Below, piece by piece: positions 1,672 to 23,572 of a stretch of 26,236 nt of DNA. The first letter of the stretch is position 1; each line of letters begins with the position of its first letter. A program made the translations under genes and the position numbers. The notes below the pieces were generated by a model. It saw only the letters and a list, made by a program, of their open reading frames with translations, had not been told where the DNA came from and searched no databases. Location of the stretch: positions 1 through 26,236 of the IMG/VR virus record IMGVR_UViG_3300025168_000572; one strand, 5' to 3'. The DNA comes from a virus.

Positions 1672-2412
1672 ATGTCTCAAGAACAAGAAGTCAAATGTCC
1701 ATATGGCGATTACTACGCTGTACTAAAAGTAAACAATCAAGGTGAAGCGTACACATTCCTCAAGGATGGTAAAGCAAAGAAAGACCCACGGACAGGACGA
1801 TTGAAGACAAGTATGCCTTCACTCGAAGCAATCATGCGACGACACGATAAGAACGAATGGAAGATGATTGCTGACTGGTACTGGACTACTAGGAACAAAC
1901 TGCAAGACAACTTCACTCAAAATCGTGGGGTACAACATGCGGATGGTACGCCAACTGTGCAACTACCAGTCGCATCACCAGAGCCAACAGGACCGTATTC
2001 GGCATTAAAAGCCTTGCTTGGTAATGTATCAGACCCTACTGACATTCAAGCATTGCTGGCGGCAGCAAGTGCCGCGCAGAATGTACAGGCTGCGCATGTA
2101 CCTGCTCCTGCTCCAGCAGTCGTACCTGCACCTGTAGTAGCAGAGGTGCCGCAAGTACAAGCAGCACCACCATCTGTTATGTCTGCGGTAATTGACTCTT
2201 GGGCTACTGCACTCAAGCAAGCGGAAGCCGTGGGTAAAAGCGTTCCAGTTACTTGGAACTTCAACGGTAGACCCATCAACGCATATCTGCGTGGTATCCA
2301 AGGTAATCGGGTGTACTTGACGATGCACCACATGGCTAAGTGGAAAGATGCTCAGGGTGAACTCACCCAAGCAGTCATCCCAACCACGGTTACCGACATT
2401 CAAGCACGCTAA
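1672..2412 (+). CDS. Hypothetical two-domain protein with Ala/Pro/Val linker, 246 aa
   Basis: I do not recognise the family. The N-terminal part (about 1-85) is a compact soluble region beginning MSQEQEVKCPYGDYYAVLKV with a Trp-rich segment. It is followed by a low-complexity Ala/Pro/Val-rich linker (about 105-165, with repeats of PAPA and VPAPV) and a small C-terminal domain (about 170-246) with beta-like strands (VPVTWNFNGRPINAYLRGI). The strong ribosome binding site AAAGGAGAGA supports ATG 1672. It is the only gene between the hairpin leader and the terminator at 2490, so it is probably its own transcription unit and possibly highly expressed. A flexible linker joining two domains would suit a DNA- or RNA-binding accessory protein, but this is a guess. 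Confidence 0.75.
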   Translation: MSQEQEVKCPYGDYYAVLKVNNQGEAYTFLKDGKAKKDPRTGRLKTSMPSLEAIMRRHDKNEWKMIADWYWTTRNKLQDNFTQNRGVQHADGTPTVQLPVASPEPTGPYSALKALLGNVSDPTDIQALLAAASAAQNVQAAHVPAPAPAVVPAPVVAEVPQVQAAPPSVMSAVIDSWATALKQAEAVGKSVPVTWNFNGRPINAYLRGIQGNRVYLTMHHMAKWKDAQGELTQAVIPTTVTDIQAR

Positions 2413-2424
2413 AGTGTGCTGGTA

Positions 2425-2435
2425 CATACTGTATG
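2425..2435. promoter_or_regulatory. Short palindrome CATACTGTATG, possible operator
   Basis: CATAC-T-GTATG is a perfect 5-bp inverted repeat around one central T. The word ACATACTGT that contains its left half (2424-2432) recurs at 2457-2465, 33 bases further. Both lie in the 77 bases between the 246-aa gene and its terminator. This could be a regulator site or chance. Confidence 0.2.
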
Positions 2436-2489
2436 CAACATATGAAATAGTACTAGACATACTGTGGCCACCAAGGTCATGACTACATA

Positions 2490-2521
2490 GGGGGCGAGAC
2501 TTAGGTCTCGTCCCCTTTTTT
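2490..2521 (+). terminator. Strong intrinsic terminator
   Basis: GGGGGCGAGAC (2490-2500) pairs with GTCTCGTCCCC (2505-2515) around the loop TTAG, giving an 11-bp stem with one G-T wobble, followed by six T residues (2516-2521). It ends the transcript of the 246-aa gene and insulates the next unit. Confidence 0.93.
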
Positions 2522-2615
2522 GTTGAAAAAAAGCCTATATTCCCAAACTACTATCATAGCTGGAATGCATCCTCGGGTTTCTTCATAGGGTTGGCCGTCG
2601 CGGATTGCTTTCGTG

Positions 2616-2644
2616 TTGAGTCTGCATTTTCTGGAAGTTAGTTT
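2616..2644 (+). promoter_or_regulatory. Candidate sigma-70-type promoter
   Basis: TTGAGT (2616-2621) and TAGTTT (2639-2644) are separated by 17 bases, the optimal spacing for a housekeeping-type bacterial promoter. It lies between a terminator and the 185-aa gene, where a promoter is required. The predicted RNA start, at about 2650, would place the following hairpin at the very 5' end of the message. Confidence 0.4.
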
Positions 2645-2645
2645 A

Positions 2646-2695
2646 GCTGACCCGAGCATCGGGTGTGGCCTGCGGCACCCGATGAACGGGACAGC
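2646..2695 (+). promoter_or_regulatory. Long hairpin in the leader of the 185-aa gene
   Basis: The core stem CATCGGGTG (2657-2665) with CACCCGATG (2676-2684) is 9 bp and perfect. It continues outward through an AG/AA internal loop to CCCG/CGGG (2651-2654, 2687-2690) and, past an A-A mismatch, GCTG/CAGC (2646-2649, 2692-2695). Each half can also fold alone (CCCGA-GCA-TCGGG, and CCCG-ATGAA-CGGG). There is no T run, so it is not a terminator. It ends 23 bases before the ATG and could stabilise the message or control its translation. Confidence 0.55.
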
Positions 2696-2717
2696 CATAC
2701 TCAAAGGAAGAAAGAAA

Positions 2718-3275
2718 ATGTCTAACTCAACAAGAAAGCAAACCGCCGCCGACCGGGAGTTTATGGCCATGAACCTCAACCAGCTAAAGCTGGTTACGGC
2801 ATGGACCAAAAACTACAACAGCGTCAAGGCCTTGGCCTCTCCGCAGGACGGCACGCCGCCCTGCAAAGACGCCATTGCCCAGAAGCTGTTTTGGGATTCG
2901 TTGAAAAACAAAGCGTTCCGCTATGTTTCTCACGAAAAAAATCCAGAAGTTGCGGGACGCAACTGGCTGGATTTTCGGAAGCACATGGCTGCCATTGAGC
3001 TTTGGCTTCCCGAACAAGGACACAAGAATGTGTCCATTGTCCGGGCCAAAGCATGGCAGTCAGGTGCTGGGGGGGATGGGAATGGCGCTTACTGCGTAAG
3101 CTTCATCCCCAAGGGAAAGCGGAAAGCCATCGAGGTTTTCCTCACAAAGTCTCGTATCGAGACTTGGTGGAAAAACATCTCCGGTCGTGACATTGTTCGT
3201 TTCGAACAAGTCACGAATCTCGATTCCGCGGTTGCGAAATCTTCGATCGCACTCGACGCGATTCCGGGCCTCTAG
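2718..3275 (+). CDS. Orphan protein of a moron-like unit, 185 aa
   Basis: An unrecognised, basic, soluble protein. I start it at ATG 2718, which follows AAAGGAAG; the longer frame from 2613 would translate through the leader hairpin and has no ribosome binding site. The N-terminus is helical (MSNSTRKQTAADREFMAMNL), the middle is Trp- and Lys-rich, and the C-terminal half carries beta-like segments around a Gly-rich turn (SGAGGDGNG). No membrane span or signal peptide. Its bases differ from the T-poor genes to the left (more G and T, more GCC and TTG codons). It has a private promoter candidate, hairpin leader and terminator, the layout of independently acquired phage cargo genes. Function unknown. 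Confidence 0.75.
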   Translation: MSNSTRKQTAADREFMAMNLNQLKLVTAWTKNYNSVKALASPQDGTPPCKDAIAQKLFWDSLKNKAFRYVSHEKNPEVAGRNWLDFRKHMAAIELWLPEQGHKNVSIVRAKAWQSGAGGDGNGAYCVSFIPKGKRKAIEVFLTKSRIETWWKNISGRDIVRFEQVTNLDSAVAKSSIALDAIPGL

Positions 3276-3281
3276 AGCATA

Positions 3282-3316
3282 GGGAGTCCAGCCTAAAGGC
3301 TGGGCTCCCTTTTTTT
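3282..3316 (+). terminator. Strong intrinsic terminator
   Basis: GGGAGTCCAGCC (3282-3293) pairs with GGCTGGGCTCCC (3298-3309) around the loop TAAA: 12 bp with a single T-G wobble, followed by seven T residues (3310-3316). It begins 6 bases after the stop of the 185-aa gene. Confidence 0.95.
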
Positions 3317-3760
3317 GTCGCGTGCCGCGAGCAAAAAACTCTAGAGCGGAATCACTGGAGTGCCCGCTTTCCCTATCCCCCCAAGCGGCAATGGTACCGG
3401 GCGCAGCAAGCTGCACCACCTAACAGGACGGCGTGAACCTCAATAAGCAGTAGCTACCCTGCGGCTAGCCACCGCTTATACGGCCCCCACCTGTTGGTCA
3501 GGCACACTATCATGTGCCTGAGTCGCGTTGTCACGCTGATTGCACTGAGCAAAGCTCAGCAATCATCGCGCCAACGCTCCTCTCGCCTGCGGGCACCTTT
3601 CCCCCAGAGGACAAGGCACGGGAGTGCCTTTTGTCCTCGGGGAAGGTGCGCCTCCGCTCGGGTTACCAGCGACAAAATAACTTTTGTCGCCATACAGTTA
3701 TAGATAGCATCCCCGGTCTGCGGAAGTTTCTATTCCGTTGAGGGTGCCCTCAACATGATG
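3317..3760 (+). ncRNA. Candidate large structured non-coding RNA
   Basis: No convincing gene occupies this stretch, yet it contains a nearly unbroken series of stems. In order: TCGCG/CGCGA (3318-3330); AGCGG/CCGCT enclosing CACT/AGTG (3345-3368); GCAG/CTGC (3403-3414); an arm closed by AACAGG/CCTGTT (3422-3427, 3490-3495) and containing ATAAGC/GCTTAT; a 9-bp TCAGGCACA/TGTGCCTGA (3498-3521); GCGT/ACGC (3525-3536); 12 bp TGATTG plus CTGAGC (3537-3565); a long stem GCACCTT, CCCC, GAGGACAA, GGCAC against its complement (3593-3649) with a GGGA loop; 9 bp GCGACAAAA (3669-3690); CGGAA/TTCCG (3721-3737); and GTTGAGG/CCTCAAC (3737-3754). The + strand is assumed from the flanking genes. No known RNA class was recognised. 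The element could instead act as folded DNA at the neighbouring origin. Confidence 0.6.
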
Positions 3761-3812
3761 AGTATTTTTGCCCAGCCCGAGGCATTTGCTGAAAAGGAAG
3801 GTTTAACCTCGA

Positions 3813-4046
3813 TGTAACGGTTGTAGACGATTTGTAACTGTTTTTTTCAGAAATCGTCTACAACGAAAACGTAGGTTTGTCCTTTACTATGGTTGTTTTT
3901 ATAGCATTTGTAACTATGTAACTGTTTTTTCCGGTTAACAACCGTACACACACTTTTTAGTCATTAATAAAAAACACTTTACTATTAATCGAAAAAAAGT
4001 GCCTCTACAGCTTATAATAGGGAAAAAATCGTCTACATCGTCTACA
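3813..4046. repeat. Iteron-like repeats, candidate replication origin
   Basis: The word TGTAGACGAT occurs at 3823-3832 and, in the opposite orientation (ATCGTCTACA), at 3853-3862, 4028-4037 and 4037-4046, the last two in tandem sharing one base. The first two belong to a perfect 14-bp inverted repeat (3820-3833 with 3851-3864). TGTAAC occurs at 3813, 3833, 3909 and 3917, and the 14-base TGTAACTGTTTTTT is repeated exactly at 3833-3846 and 3917-3930, 84 bp apart, about eight helical turns. AT-rich DNA with two ATTAAT words (3963, 3984; 21 bp apart) lies between the clusters. Such iterons plus an AT-rich tract, just upstream of HTH and primase-helicase genes, are the usual form of an initiator-dependent origin. 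Confidence 0.55.
3820..3864. repeat. 14-bp perfect inverted repeat
   Basis: GTTGTAGACGATTT (3820-3833) and AAATCGTCTACAAC (3851-3864) are exact complements around a 17-base spacer that contains a run of seven T. On DNA this is a large symmetric protein-binding or cruciform site; as RNA it would be a stable hairpin. Its arms carry the iteron word described for the candidate origin. Confidence 0.85.
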
Positions 4047-4121
4047 ATCAGGGCTTACGCAGTTAGAACCTGCACTCTCGTGTTGACAAACAGTAGTTAC
4101 GTTCGCACTACATTTTGTGCA

Positions 4122-4140
4122 TATATGGGGTGTCCATATA
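4122..4140. promoter_or_regulatory. Operator-like inverted repeat
   Basis: TATATGG (4122-4128) and CCATATA (4134-4140) are exact complements around GGTGT. The centre-to-centre distance of about 12 bp is typical for a dimeric HTH protein. It sits 15 bases before the -35 box of the promoter candidate for the small HTH gene, so autoregulation by that protein is plausible. Confidence 0.35.
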
Positions 4141-4154
4141 GTTTCCTGCGCCAC

Positions 4155-4182
4155 TTGACGTGTCTGCCGCATGTGTTACTAG
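4155..4182 (+). promoter_or_regulatory. Candidate promoter of the replication genes
   Basis: TTGACG (4155-4160) and TACTAG (4177-4182) are separated by 16 bases. They are followed by AGAGGAGGTG (4193-4202), a near-perfect ribosome binding site, and ATG 4208. A second -35-like TTGACA at 4083-4088 has a poorer -10 (TACATT, 20-base spacer). Confidence 0.4.
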
Positions 4183-4207
4183 ATGACGCGCCAGAGGAGG
4201 TGAACAC

Positions 4208-4411
4208 ATGGAAGACACCATGTTGAGTGTTAAAGAAATAGCTAAGTTCCTGAGTGTGAGTAAGCGCACGGTCCAACGTATGGTGAAACGTGGCGAGTTG
4301 GACGCCGTTAGAGTAGGAGGACAGATACGGGTACACCGGTCTGCACTAGATACTCTACTGCGCGAATGTTCAGTGTCTGCGGACGGATACACCCCAACAT
4401 CACTGGTATAG
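4208..4411 (+). CDS. Excisionase/MerR-type HTH DNA-binding protein, 67 aa
   Basis: Residues about 5-50 (MLSVKEIAKFLSVSKRTVQR, then MVKRGELDAVRVGGQIRVHR) match the small winged HTH domain of excisionase-family proteins: a helix-turn-helix for the major groove and a beta-wing ending in the typical arginine-rich IRVHRSALD segment. The family binds specific DNA, bends it, and serves in excision, replication control or repression. No integrase is visible, and the gene sits between repeated DNA (3.8-4.05 kb) and a primase-helicase, so binding at the candidate origin or autoregulation at TATATGG...CCATATA seems likelier than excision. The AGGAGGTG site supports ATG 4208; Met5 (4220) is a weaker alternative. 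Nine bases separate it from the primase gene. Confidence 0.85.
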   Translation: MEDTMLSVKEIAKFLSVSKRTVQRMVKRGELDAVRVGGQIRVHRSALDTLLRECSVSADGYTPTSLV

Positions 4412-4420
4412 GAGCCACTT

Positions 4421-6877
4421 ATGGAAGCAAATTTGCAGGAAATTAGGTCTGCGCTTGGCAAAATCATCGAGGGGGGGACAATCGTGGAGATTCGTGCACT
4501 GTCTGTCCCCTCTAATGACGGGATCCGGCGTACACTTAGTGGATTCTTCGACGATCTAGACATTGCGGCCCGTGCAGCGGCAGCACTTTCCAATCAGGGG
4601 GCTAAGGGAGTCTATTTTACCCCAAATGCACTAAAAGCCAGCCGCAAAACCCGTCATTTGAACACTTTGACCGTTGGGTCTCGCGGAAGTTCGACCCGAG
4701 ACAGTGATATTGAGGCCATTCGTTGGATTCTGGTCGATATTGACCCCGAACGGCCCGCAGGTGTGTCCGCCACCGACGAAGAGAAGGGATACGCACGCGA
4801 AGTTACGACTAATGTGCGTGATTACTTAAAAGAACAAGGGTTTCCGGCCCCGATTGAGGCAGATTCGGGTAACGGGTACCACTTGATGTACCGCGTAGAC
4901 GGTATGACGTCCGCACAGCACCGCGCTTTGCTTGAGCATCTGTCTAAGAAGTTCAGTACGGACGGCGCGCAGGTAGATCGGCTCGTTTTTAACCCGTCTC
5001 GCATCTGGAAAGTGTACGGAACCCTACCTCAGAAGGGATCGCCGACACTAACTCGTCCACACCGGAAGGCAACGGTACTTAACTGTCCTGAAGTTCTGGT
5101 ACCAGTTTCAGTGCAGCAGCTAGAAGGACTAACCGCCAAAGGCGGTGAAGCTGAGGATGACATCAACTTCGCTCAGGTTGCTGCTGTTTTCGACAAGCTA
5201 GATTCTTACCTGTCTGAACACTTTCCGCAACTAAAAGGTCCAGACGACTGGCCCGGAAAAGGACGTCGCTGGACCTTTGATATTTGTCCTTGGGACGAAT
5301 CACACTTGGATCGCAGTGCCTATGTTCTGCAATTCAATGATGGCGGCATCGCAGCCGGATGTCTTCACAAGAATTGTGAGGGACACCCAAAAGACGATGA
5401 GGGCAAGCATATTGGGTGGGATAAGTTGCAGGAGTTGGCCGGGGAACGGTTCGATCCCCAAGTTACTCCTACGTCTGCCTCCACTACCGACTCCCCGAAT
5501 CTCACGGACTTGGGTAATGCTAAACGGATGGTACGAATGTGGCAAAATGAACTCCTGTATTGCCCGACGCACGGGGCTTGGTATGTGTTTGGAGATTGTC
5601 ACTGGGAGCGGGACATGGACGGCGAGGTGAATCGTAGGGCCAAAGCTGTTGTTTCGACGATATTCGATGAGGCAGAGGCTGCTCCGGGGAAAGCTCAGAA
5701 GAAGTCTATTCGTCGTCACGCTCTTCGCAGTGAAAGCTCACGAGCCATTAACTCAATGATTAGCTTAGCGTCAACCGAAATTGAGATGAGTTTGTTGTCC
5801 AATCGTATGGACTCAGACCCTTGGCTTTTTAACGTTGCAAACGGCACAATCGACCTACGGACGGGCGTCCTGTCAGAGCACGATCGGACTGACTACATTA
5901 CGAAAGTTAGCCCTGTAACCTATGACCCCAATGCGAAGTGTCCTTTGTGGGATGAATTTTTGTCTTACGCTATGGAGGAAGATCCAGAAGTCGTCGATTT
6001 CATCCACCGGTTCTTCGGCTACTGCCTCACCGGACTCGTCACCGAACAGGTGCTGTTGTTTATGGAAGGGACCGGGAGTAACGGTAAGACGACGGCGCTG
6101 CTGATGATCATGCACTTGTTAGGAGATTACGCAATACAAGGCGCTCCCGGCCTCCTCCTAGCGAAGCAAGGCGAGTCCCACCCCACTGAGGTGGCTGACC
6201 TCGAAGGGACGCGCTTCGTGGCCAACTCAGAGGTCGAGAAGGGCAAGCCTTTCGCTGAGGCGCTCATCAAACAGTTGACCGGTAGTGACCCGGTACGCGC
6301 TCGGCGGATGCGTCAGGACTTCTACCAGTTCATGCCTACGCACAAGCTCTGCATTGCAGCAAACCATAGGCCGATCATCAAGGGCAATGACGAAGGCATT
6401 TGGCGTCGTGTGCTCCGCATACCTTGGAACAGGCAAATCCCTAAGGACCGAAAAGACCCTTTCTTCCTAGACAAATTGAAAGAAGAGGCTCCCGGGATCT
6501 TGGCCCACTTGGTCCGTGGATGCATGGCATGGCAGGCGGACGGCCTTAGGTCCCCAGAGAAGATCTCCTTGGCTACGGGTGAGTACCGCGAAGAGATGGA
6601 TGTACTGGCGGATTTCATGGAAGAAATCTGTTTGGTAGACGCCGAGGTCAGGGTGCCACAGAAAGAACTGTACCTAAAGTACACAGAGTGGTGCGATGAG
6701 TTGAAGCAGAAGCCCCAGAATTATCGACTGTTTAACCGACAACTTAAGGAACGGAACTTTAAGCTGACGTCTACTCGGATTGGCGGTCGTGTTGTCCGTG
6801 CTTGGATCGGCTTGACTATTCGGCCTAGTGAGAATGCGGGTGGGCATGTGGTCAACTTTAGGGGGATCGGTGGCTAG
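4421..6877 (+). CDS. AEP primase / SF3 helicase replication protein, 818 aa
   Basis: A complete primase-helicase of the phage/plasmid P4-D5 type. The N-terminal archaeo-eukaryotic primase domain shows the metal-binding pair D106/D108 (LVDIDP), the nucleotide-binding SGNGYH motif at 149-154 and NPSRIWKVYG at 191-200. A Cys/His cluster follows (C289, H295, C314, H316, C319), probably zinc binding. The D5-type linker domain (about 370-500) contains NGTIDLRTG. The SF3 helicase has Walker A GTGSNGKT (550-557), a B motif near NSEVE (602-606), sensor N648 in CIAANHRPI and the arginine finger in GIWRRVLRIPW. It would unwind the origin as a hexamer and lay primers. It follows the HTH gene closely and overlaps the next gene by 8 bases from the GTG start I chose. 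Confidence 0.95.
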   Translation: MEANLQEIRSALGKIIEGGTIVEIRALSVPSNDGIRRTLSGFFDDLDIAARAAAALSNQGAKGVYFTPNALKASRKTRHLNTLTVGSRGSSTRDSDIEAIRWILVDIDPERPAGVSATDEEKGYAREVTTNVRDYLKEQGFPAPIEADSGNGYHLMYRVDGMTSAQHRALLEHLSKKFSTDGAQVDRLVFNPSRIWKVYGTLPQKGSPTLTRPHRKATVLNCPEVLVPVSVQQLEGLTAKGGEAEDDINFAQVAAVFDKLDSYLSEHFPQLKGPDDWPGKGRRWTFDICPWDESHLDRSAYVLQFNDGGIAAGCLHKNCEGHPKDDEGKHIGWDKLQELAGERFDPQVTPTSASTTDSPNLTDLGNAKRMVRMWQNELLYCPTHGAWYVFGDCHWERDMDGEVNRRAKAVVSTIFDEAEAAPGKAQKKSIRRHALRSESSRAINSMISLASTEIEMSLLSNRMDSDPWLFNVANGTIDLRTGVLSEHDRTDYITKVSPVTYDPNAKCPLWDEFLSYAMEEDPEVVDFIHRFFGYCLTGLVTEQVLLFMEGTGSNGKTTALLMIMHLLGDYAIQGAPGLLLAKQGESHPTEVADLEGTRFVANSEVEKGKPFAEALIKQLTGSDPVRARRMRQDFYQFMPTHKLCIAANHRPIIKGNDEGIWRRVLRIPWNRQIPKDRKDPFFLDKLKEEAPGILAHLVRGCMAWQADGLRSPEKISLATGEYREEMDVLADFMEEICLVDAEVRVPQKELYLKYTEWCDELKQKPQNYRLFNRQLKERNFKLTSTRIGGRVVRAWIGLTIRPSENAGGHVVNFRGIGG

Positions 6878-21850: not shown

Positions 21851-23572
21851 ATGAACCTGAAGGGGATTCGTACTGCGATGTTTGCTCAGGCGGACTACTC
21901 ACCGAGTAGTTCACCTGAAGCACTCTCGCGTGTGAATGGCTTCATCAACAGGGCTTACAATCAGTTAGCTCTGGAAGCCCCCTTCCTGTTTTTTGAATCT
22001 AAGGTGTATCTGACTACAGAGCCAGATGCGTCTTCTAAGGCGGGTGGTACCGATAACGCAGGTAATGCGGTAACCGATACCATTCGCCTAGCTGGTGCAA
22101 ACACGGGCATGGGAGCAACTAATGACCCATGGACGTGGCGTACCACCTTTACTTCCGTACAACAAGGCCAAGTACCCGAGGGCCTAACTGCATGGAACCA
22201 CGATCGTTCTTGGGACGGTCGTATGATTGAGATTACGGCTACAGATGGTACTCGTCTTCGCAATCAAATCCGGTCTGTCTGGCATAATACCAGCGATAAC
22301 TATTACTACTTTACCCTTGTCACTCCATGGGACATCGGCACTTACGGTACCTCAGAGTACAAGTACAGAGTGTTTACCGAAGCGTACCCACTCCCTGACG
22401 ACGTAGTACAGTTAAAATCTGCTCGCCTTAGAGACCAAGACATCAATTATCCATTGGACGTATTTGGACAAGATGAAGCGGCCCAGCATCAGCTAGTAGG
22501 CCCTCCCAGTCAAGTAGCGTCCGGTATCCCTCGCGTGATTTTCCGCGAGCAACACATCCACATGCAAGGCCCAAGCGTAGCTCCGGTGGCCTCGATTAGT
22601 ACCGAAGATGAAAACGTGCTGTGGGTGGGACCTGAACCTGCGGGATCTTTCGAGTACAAGGTCACCTACACTTGGGGTAAGCGCGACGTAGAGTTCCAAC
22701 TCCCCGGCCTAGCGTCGTACAACGGATTTGCACAGCCGTTGAGCCAGACTTCTGCTACGTCGTATCCCTCCCAGAGCGATACAAACCGCACCAATACTAC
22801 AGACGACCGGTTTCGTACCCCCCGGTTTGAGTCTCCGGCGTCCCCCGCGTCGAATGCGGTTGTTGTAACTCCAGCCGGACCCACCGACACTTACGCAGTT
22901 AAGTTGTCACTACCGAACATTACCTACGCACTCGGGTTCTTAAACTCTTTTATCGGTGGATCTTCTCGGCAGTCCCTTAATCAATCCGGCCTATACGTCC
23001 GTATTTACCGTAAGCGATTAACGACAAATTTTGCCCAGTACTTGGCGCAACAGACTACCTCACCAGCTACCCGACAAGCAAAACTAGACGCGTCTCAACT
23101 AGACGTGTCCGACGATTTCTATCTTCTGGCAGAAACTCGCGTAGACAATTCTAACTTGGGAGTATGGTTCGATAAAGGCGATGTATTGCCAGATCGAAGC
23201 CGCCGCATACGCGACATTCATGGGTACCAGACTCTAATGTTCTACCCGAAGCCCGATAAGCGGTACGTTACCGAAGTTCGAGCGGTAGTCCGCCCACAAG
23301 AGTTGGTAGACGACGAAGATACTCCTTGGGTCAACGCCGAGGCCATGAACGTTCTCCTCTCCCGGGCTATGGCCCTGTTTTACGAAAATCTAGGTCAACC
23401 TCAGCTTTCTCAGCTTTCATACGGCAGGTACCAAGAAGAATTACTTACGCTTTCAAAAAGATACGGCGATCTTAGACCTCCTAACGTCCCCGTGTTACGT
23501 CGTATGACAAGAGCACAAAGTTCTTTTCGTGGTAACCGGTACTACCGAAAATGGTGGACCACTTCAAGCTGA
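21851..23572 (+). CDS. Head-tail adaptor-like protein with large insert, 573 aa
   Basis: The two ends look like a podovirus head-tail adaptor (P22 gp4 / T7 gp11 type): an N-terminal helix (RVNGFINRAYNQLALEAPFL) and a C-terminal helical part (AEAMNVLLSRAMALFYENLG, then YGRYQEELLTLSKRYGDL). Adaptors are normally about 150-250 residues. Here about 300 extra residues of beta-rich, Ser/Thr/Pro-rich sequence lie in between and may form an outward domain. It would bind the portal ring and receive the tail nozzle encoded two genes later. The ribosome site is weak, so translation is probably coupled to the previous gene, which ends only 3 bases upstream. Confidence 0.65.
   Translation: MNLKGIRTAMFAQADYSPSSSPEALSRVNGFINRAYNQLALEAPFLFFESKVYLTTEPDASSKAGGTDNAGNAVTDTIRLAGANTGMGATNDPWTWRTTFTSVQQGQVPEGLTAWNHDRSWDGRMIEITATDGTRLRNQIRSVWHNTSDNYYYFTLVTPWDIGTYGTSEYKYRVFTEAYPLPDDVVQLKSARLRDQDINYPLDVFGQDEAAQHQLVGPPSQVASGIPRVIFREQHIHMQGPSVAPVASISTEDENVLWVGPEPAGSFEYKVTYTWGKRDVEFQLPGLASYNGFAQPLSQTSATSYPSQSDTNRTNTTDDRFRTPRFESPASPASNAVVVTPAGPTDTYAVKLSLPNITYALGFLNSFIGGSSRQSLNQSGLYVRIYRKRLTTNFAQYLAQQTTSPATRQAKLDASQLDVSDDFYLLAETRVDNSNLGVWFDKGDVLPDRSRRIRDIHGYQTLMFYPKPDKRYVTEVRAVVRPQELVDDEDTPWVNAEAMNVLLSRAMALFYENLGQPQLSQLSYGRYQEELLTLSKRYGDLRPPNVPVLRRMTRAQSSFRGNRYYRKWWTTSS

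Follow-up and report, generated by a model that had tools for sequence, protein, structure and literature searches.

A dense hairpin array beside the presumed replication origin of an uncultured phage is a candidate for a large, fast-evolving structured RNA

We analysed a stretch of 26,236 nt (hereafter the window). It is a linear virus record from an uncultured phage, with terminase, portal and capsid genes. No named phage record matched the region under study. The nearest known relatives are other metagenomic contigs, which were found via the primase gene of the window phage and show 58-82% identity among the rows aligned. The features of the locus are listed in Table 1. To the right of a series of hairpins, the sequence has what is presumed to be the layout of a replication origin, with TCGTCTACA-type boxes around an AT-rich stretch, after which come two genes, a small one for an HTH protein and one for a D5-type primase-helicase. 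In iteron-type origins, repeats flank an AT-rich stretch beside genes for a DNA-binding protein and for replication, an arrangement that was found here both in the sequence and in the relatives. The layout of the iteron-like repeats at 3820-4060 is kept in the relatives, while their sequence changes from phage to phage (TCGTCTACA, GGTTACA, TCTACGG, GTCTACG); the CTTATAATAGGGAAAAAA box is conserved at the same place amid these changing repeats.

Table 1. Positions of genes, signals and predicted structures at the locus (window coordinates).
Feature	Position	Strand	Remarks
Whole hairpin array, candidate large RNA	2599-3722	-	Ends uncertain; from folding z, helices and strand test
Leftmost long hairpin of the array	2600-2746		Over leader and gene start
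Probable gene, 185 aa	2718-3275	+	Coding signal; sequence itself an array of hairpins
Closing helix of the array	2747-2757:3712-3722
Inner-domain long-range helices	3070-3077:3375-3382 and 3112-3122:3364-3374
Branched palindrome	3249-3363		Joins ORF end, terminator (palindrome tip) and sequence beyond
Intrinsic terminator of rightward gene	3281-3317	+	Stem 3281-3310, then T-run
Right-hand third of the array	3317-3706	-	Non-coding; 5' third if minus-strand RNA
Small hairpin	3400-3417	-	G-C-closed CUUG loop on minus
Two-tier hairpin	3418-3498	-	Apical stem of ~14 pairs on minus
Conserved hairpin	3525-3577	-	Also L035:4018-4070 (+) and L067:982-1022 (-); conserved G.A mismatch and G.U pair
Longest hairpin of 3317-3706	3593-3649		24 pairs with bulges, 4-nt loop
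Bipartite DNA box	3707-3770		GCATCcCC-N34-38-CTCAACAYGAY, then T-run; common to 17 phages
Presumed origin	3820-4060		TCGTCTACA-type repeats flanking AT-rich stretch with CTTATAATAGGGAAAAAA; based on sequence and relatives
HTH_17 (excisionase-type) DNA-binding protein gene	4208-4411	+
D5-type primase-helicase gene	4421-6877	+	Query for finding relatives

The bipartite box lies left of the iterons and its sequence is kept in 17 phages, with the 34-38 bases between its halves being variable. As no consensus RNA fold of the box was obtained across the phages, it was rejected as an RNA element; it belongs with the origin and is to be kept apart from the hairpin finding. A reading made from the sequence alone (the sequence-only reading) had placed an RNA candidate at 3317-3760, and its right ~60 bases therefore have to be removed from that candidate. 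The spacer to the left of the origin is almost wholly different between relatives, each having its own repeats or palindromes. Private repeat families were seen left of the box in L006, L012, L018, L022 and L037, and the private spacer repeats include short palindromes (e.g., GAACAAATGTTC and TGACAGAATGTCA) and direct repeats (e.g., GCTGAAAGTTTTTCG and GCAAGAACCGTGCCAA). The contigs of many relatives (L002, L003, L005, L007, L008, L010, and L018) stop within ~1000 bases left of the box, and L002 begins exactly at GCATCCCC. These contig ends suggest that the site either is a genome end or is so variable that assemblies break there.

At 2718-3272 a coding score was obtained for the frame of the ORF alone, and the probable gene is equipped with a purine-rich leader and a terminator. 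Searches in Pfam, PHROGs, NCBIfam, phage and plasmid records, the relatives and PDB sequences identified no homologue of the 185-aa protein. Its structure model is too weak to be of use, although the insignificant fold matches include a few double-stranded-RNA-binding domains. The short ORFs within 3317-3760 displayed no coding signal, in agreement with the sequence-only reading, which had found no protein-like reading frame there.

The hairpins were initially described as a gene-free region of 440 bases. Our analysis indicated that they form a nearly unbroken array of ~1.1 kb (~2599-3722) of abutting hairpins that runs through the 185-aa ORF and its terminator, so that the earlier extent was too short and the array overlaps a gene. 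The predicted fold comprises ~twenty abutting hairpins with multi-branch closures, and nearly all hairpin loops are 3-4 nt long. The terminator (stem 3281-3310 and T-run) that had been taken as the left edge is real. The edge at 3317 is, however, no boundary, since similar hairpins reach ~2599 through the ORF and the palindrome at 3249-3363 bridges it. All stems named previously were present: the bulged 24-pair stem 3593-3619:3624-3649 with a GGGA loop on the plus strand, the 12-bp apical stem, which is contained in the hairpin of 21-22 pairs at 3525-3577, and the 9-bp stems at 3498-3521 and 3669-3690. A homologue of hairpin 3593-3649 was not found. Hairpins 2758-2814 and 3418-3498 have on the minus strand a common internal-loop motif (CCGUA opposite UUGAGGUUCA) and unrelated apical stems; they also hold the two copies of a 10-mer, TGAACCTCAA, which occurs nowhere else in the phage.

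Folding energies were compared with those of dinucleotide shuffles. For 3317-3760 the z-score was -6.5 on the plus and -9.9 on the minus strand and no shuffle was equally stable, which bears out the earlier statement that its hairpins are beyond chance. The whole of 2599-3722 reached a z-score of about -22 on both strands. In sliding windows between ~2551 and 3750, one strand or both had z below about -6, compared to a phage mean near -1, and none of 1366 windows from the relatives fell below -7 or was comparable to the array. The gene was additionally compared with synonymous-codon shuffles in which protein and codon set are kept, and was found to fold 10.3 SD (plus) and 12.2 SD (minus) lower. 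The corresponding z-scores were +0.1 to -7.7 for ten other gene segments of the phage and -4.7 to -7.3 for MS2 genes. Because the gene folds so far below its synonymous shuffles, and MS2 genes do so less, the folding is not a by-product of protein or composition. Elsewhere in the phage, the start of a likely structural gene (21851-22450) has a z-score of -7.7 on the plus strand against synonymous shuffles and contains a long hairpin (21853-21992).

Structured RNA uses G.U pairs, which on the opposite strand become A.C mismatches. A strand test was performed in which the between-strand difference in folding energy was compared with that of shuffles, and in the controls the known strand was recovered (MS2, +0.3 to +3.2; tmRNA, +2.1). 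The array favoured the minus strand throughout, including inside the gene, with values of -2.4 to -4.6 for the main segments and -1.7 for 3364-3706 alone. The minus preference of the whole array goes beyond composition, as it was matched by 0 of 60 shuffles; in the relatives L067 and L035 the test gave mixed results. An example is the apical stem of 3418-3498, in which two G.U pairs on minus correspond to A.C mismatches on plus. A preference for one strand is expected of structured non-coding RNA, and here it is for the minus strand instead of the strand that the sequence-only reading had implied. The GGGA loop that had been called a GNRA-type tetraloop does exist on the plus strand, but would read UCCC on the favoured strand. 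A strand-biased mutation process could mimic the signal of the strand test, and the G.U excess could likewise stem from a bias towards C-to-T changes if the minus strand is exposed. In several relatives, genes to the left of the box are directed leftward, which makes leftward transcription of the array plausible as judged from gene order; a promoter scan revealed no clear minus-strand promoter or terminator for a leftward transcript.

One hairpin of the array (3525-3577) is in common with the relative L035. A covariance model built from these two hairpins identified a third one in L067 (982-1022) with a rough E-value of 6e-5 over 327 kb; like the other two it lies to the left of the origin, and its strand is also the same. 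The covariation of the three sequences, aligned by the covariance model and by hand, was then counted; the L067 pairs were taken from the covariance-model alignment, the L067 hairpin being misaligned by pairwise MAFFT. Read on the minus strand, standard pairs occupy 60 of the 61 cells, there are six covarying pairs and the G.U pair is kept in all three phages, whereas seven cells break when the plus strand is read. This hairpin thus displays in three phages the covarying base pairs expected of structured non-coding RNA. L067 in addition carries within its spacer a 97-nt element in two copies (850-945 and 2559-2655; 80% identical over 91 nt), which was absent from the window and from the other viral contigs searched. 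Between the copies there are five double compensatory changes, while no pair of the predicted consensus is broken, and a one-sided change keeps a G.U pair only on minus. CUUG loops on the minus strand recur as well: a G-C pair closes the loop in hairpin 3400-3417 of the window and in the hairpin of L035, and the loop is present in both copies of the L067 element, one closed by G-C and the other by A-U. The compensatory changes and the recurrent CUUG loops indicate structured elements under selection in the spacer of these phages, the elements themselves turning over fast. This suggests, from sequence comparison, that part of the array is a conserved RNA from the strand opposite to the genes. 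For the array beyond hairpin 3525-3577 no homologues were detectable, so that for most stems an RNA is proposed from folding energy and strand bias. Covarying stems in homologues, which the sequence-only reading had named as support for an RNA, were accordingly obtained for one hairpin and for the element duplicated in L067, and most stems have no homologue to compare. Fifteen matches to the hairpin in bacterial genomes were discarded as coincidence, nearly all of them being the N-terminus of prepilins (FTLIELLVVIAIIA), and a relaxed hairpin pattern found, besides L035, only unrelated GC-rich matches in viral contigs.

The explanation that we prefer, at a shade under even chances, is that the array represents a large, fast-evolving structured RNA which is transcribed leftward from the origin side. 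Such an RNA would be ~1.1 kb long, would come from the minus strand and run antisense across the 185-aa gene, with region 3317-3706 as its 5' third, and would fold into ~twenty hairpins that abut one another, with long-range helices closing them. Most likely, such an RNA would owe its function to its fold and serve during replication as a nuclease-resistant scaffold or decoy to bind protein or RNA; secondarily, it might affect the 185-aa gene as an antisense RNA. We computed the predicted fold and its excess over controls, the strand bias and the covariation of one hairpin in three phages; we infer transcription, the ends, the joining of the hairpins in a single molecule and the function. Among the points against the proposal are that the array crosses a gene and its terminator, which one would hardly expect of a discrete non-coding RNA, and that the covariation comes from three sequences plus an element duplicated in L067 that the window does not have. 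A large ornate phage RNA, as originally suggested, thus still offers the best single reading, with its extent and strand changed and the origin box left out.

A DNA role at the origin is unlikely in our estimate, though the most probable of the alternatives. Single-strand origins and primosome assembly sites are hairpins in single-stranded DNA that are read by replication proteins, and one strand of the array might similarly form hairpins when single-stranded during replication and be read by a protein, for instance the primase or helicase of the phage, with no long RNA needed. The array adjoins the presumed origin, its loops are 3-4 nt, and it crosses gene and terminator regardless of transcription units. 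Moreover, G.T is the better tolerated mismatch in DNA as well, so that a single exposed DNA strand would account for the strand bias equally. However, although 3707-4060 and the next two genes share the layout of iteron-type origins with a D5-type primase-helicase, relatives with this same layout are without a comparable array; known single-strand initiation sites are much shorter than 1.1 kb, and a DNA-only role leaves the recurrent CUUG loops unexplained. We consider it quite unlikely that the array has no selected function and is a plastic spacer beside the origin, in which inverted repeats arose by template switching or similar errors and a gene was caught inside. The spacer differs wholly between relatives, often with private repeats and palindromes, and the array is unique to the window phage, but the compensatory changes in hairpin 3525-3577 and in the L067 element, the strand bias and a coding frame that stays open through the array argue against it. 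A folded rightward mRNA is improbable; in this reading the fold of the 185-aa message and leader would stabilise the transcript or control its translation, and the encoded protein might bind to it. The probable gene has its purine-rich leader and terminator and the plus strand folds strongly too, but the minus strand folds better throughout, the gene included, and 3317-3706 sits past the terminator. Finally, a DNA-carried copy of an Obelisk-like or RNA-phage-like replicon, with genome-type folding on both strands, would resemble such agents in its ~1.1 kb, single ORF of ~185 aa and folding level, but is very remote given a hairpin array in place of a rod, no protein homology, and the fact that related DNA phages carry hairpin 3525-3577, there too to the left of this origin box. 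An integron attC array, a group II intron, a retron and a CRISPR-like array were also considered and rejected, because the sequence lacks a repeated unit and neither a reverse transcriptase nor an integrase was recognised beside the array.

Few phage molecules are as poorly understood as the giant ornate RNAs. If transcribed, the array would work like one of them, the new twist being its antisense position across a gene. That it stands for a new class of giant phage RNA, ~1.1 kb long, more densely folded than an RNA-phage genome and antisense to a protein gene, with one stretch of DNA constrained doubly by protein code and folded antisense RNA, is a rather unlikely proposition at present. The array provides a sharp test case, being a 1.1-kb segment next to a well-delimited presumed origin, and the three-phage hairpin (3525-3577) can serve as a seed for finding further members. 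A literature search on hairpin arrays in phage coding DNA returned nothing relevant.

The array is no member of a described RNA family and fails the applicable GOLLD, ROOL and Obelisk tests. GOLLD and ROOL are frequently located near tRNA genes and self-assemble into RNA cages. Rfam covariance models gave nothing at gathering score in the window and a permissive scan of 2400-4500 only chance-level matches, consistent with the sequence-only reading, which had not recognised GOLLD or ROOL features; the 26-kb window contains no tRNA genes. GOLLD and ROOL, which phages and prophages carry, are large ornate RNAs (PMC12286853), and the array is likewise large, elaborately folded and phage-carried. 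It differs from them in having no Rfam match and no tRNA nearby, in lying antisense over a gene and at a replication origin, in its stems, which are long simple hairpins, and in its very few homologues. With Obelisks, which are viroid-like RNA agents (PMC11922315), the array shares a size of ~1 kb and one ORF near 200 aa, but it is carried in DNA and, instead of a rod-like whole-molecule fold, has a predicted hairpin array with multi-branch closures. Similarity of the 185-aa protein to Oblin-1 was looked for via Pfam and PDB sequences, among which no homologue was detected, and the structure model was too weak to be of use. The single-stranded RNA genome of MS2 is similar in that its coding sequence is folded far beyond synonymous and dinucleotide expectation on both strands, whereas the array belongs to a DNA phage, is folded more strongly than MS2 and prefers the strand antisense to the gene. 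If our preferred reading is true, coding sequence and a folded antisense strand occupy the same 560 bases, and a DNA phage would keep RNA-phage-like folding inside a gene.
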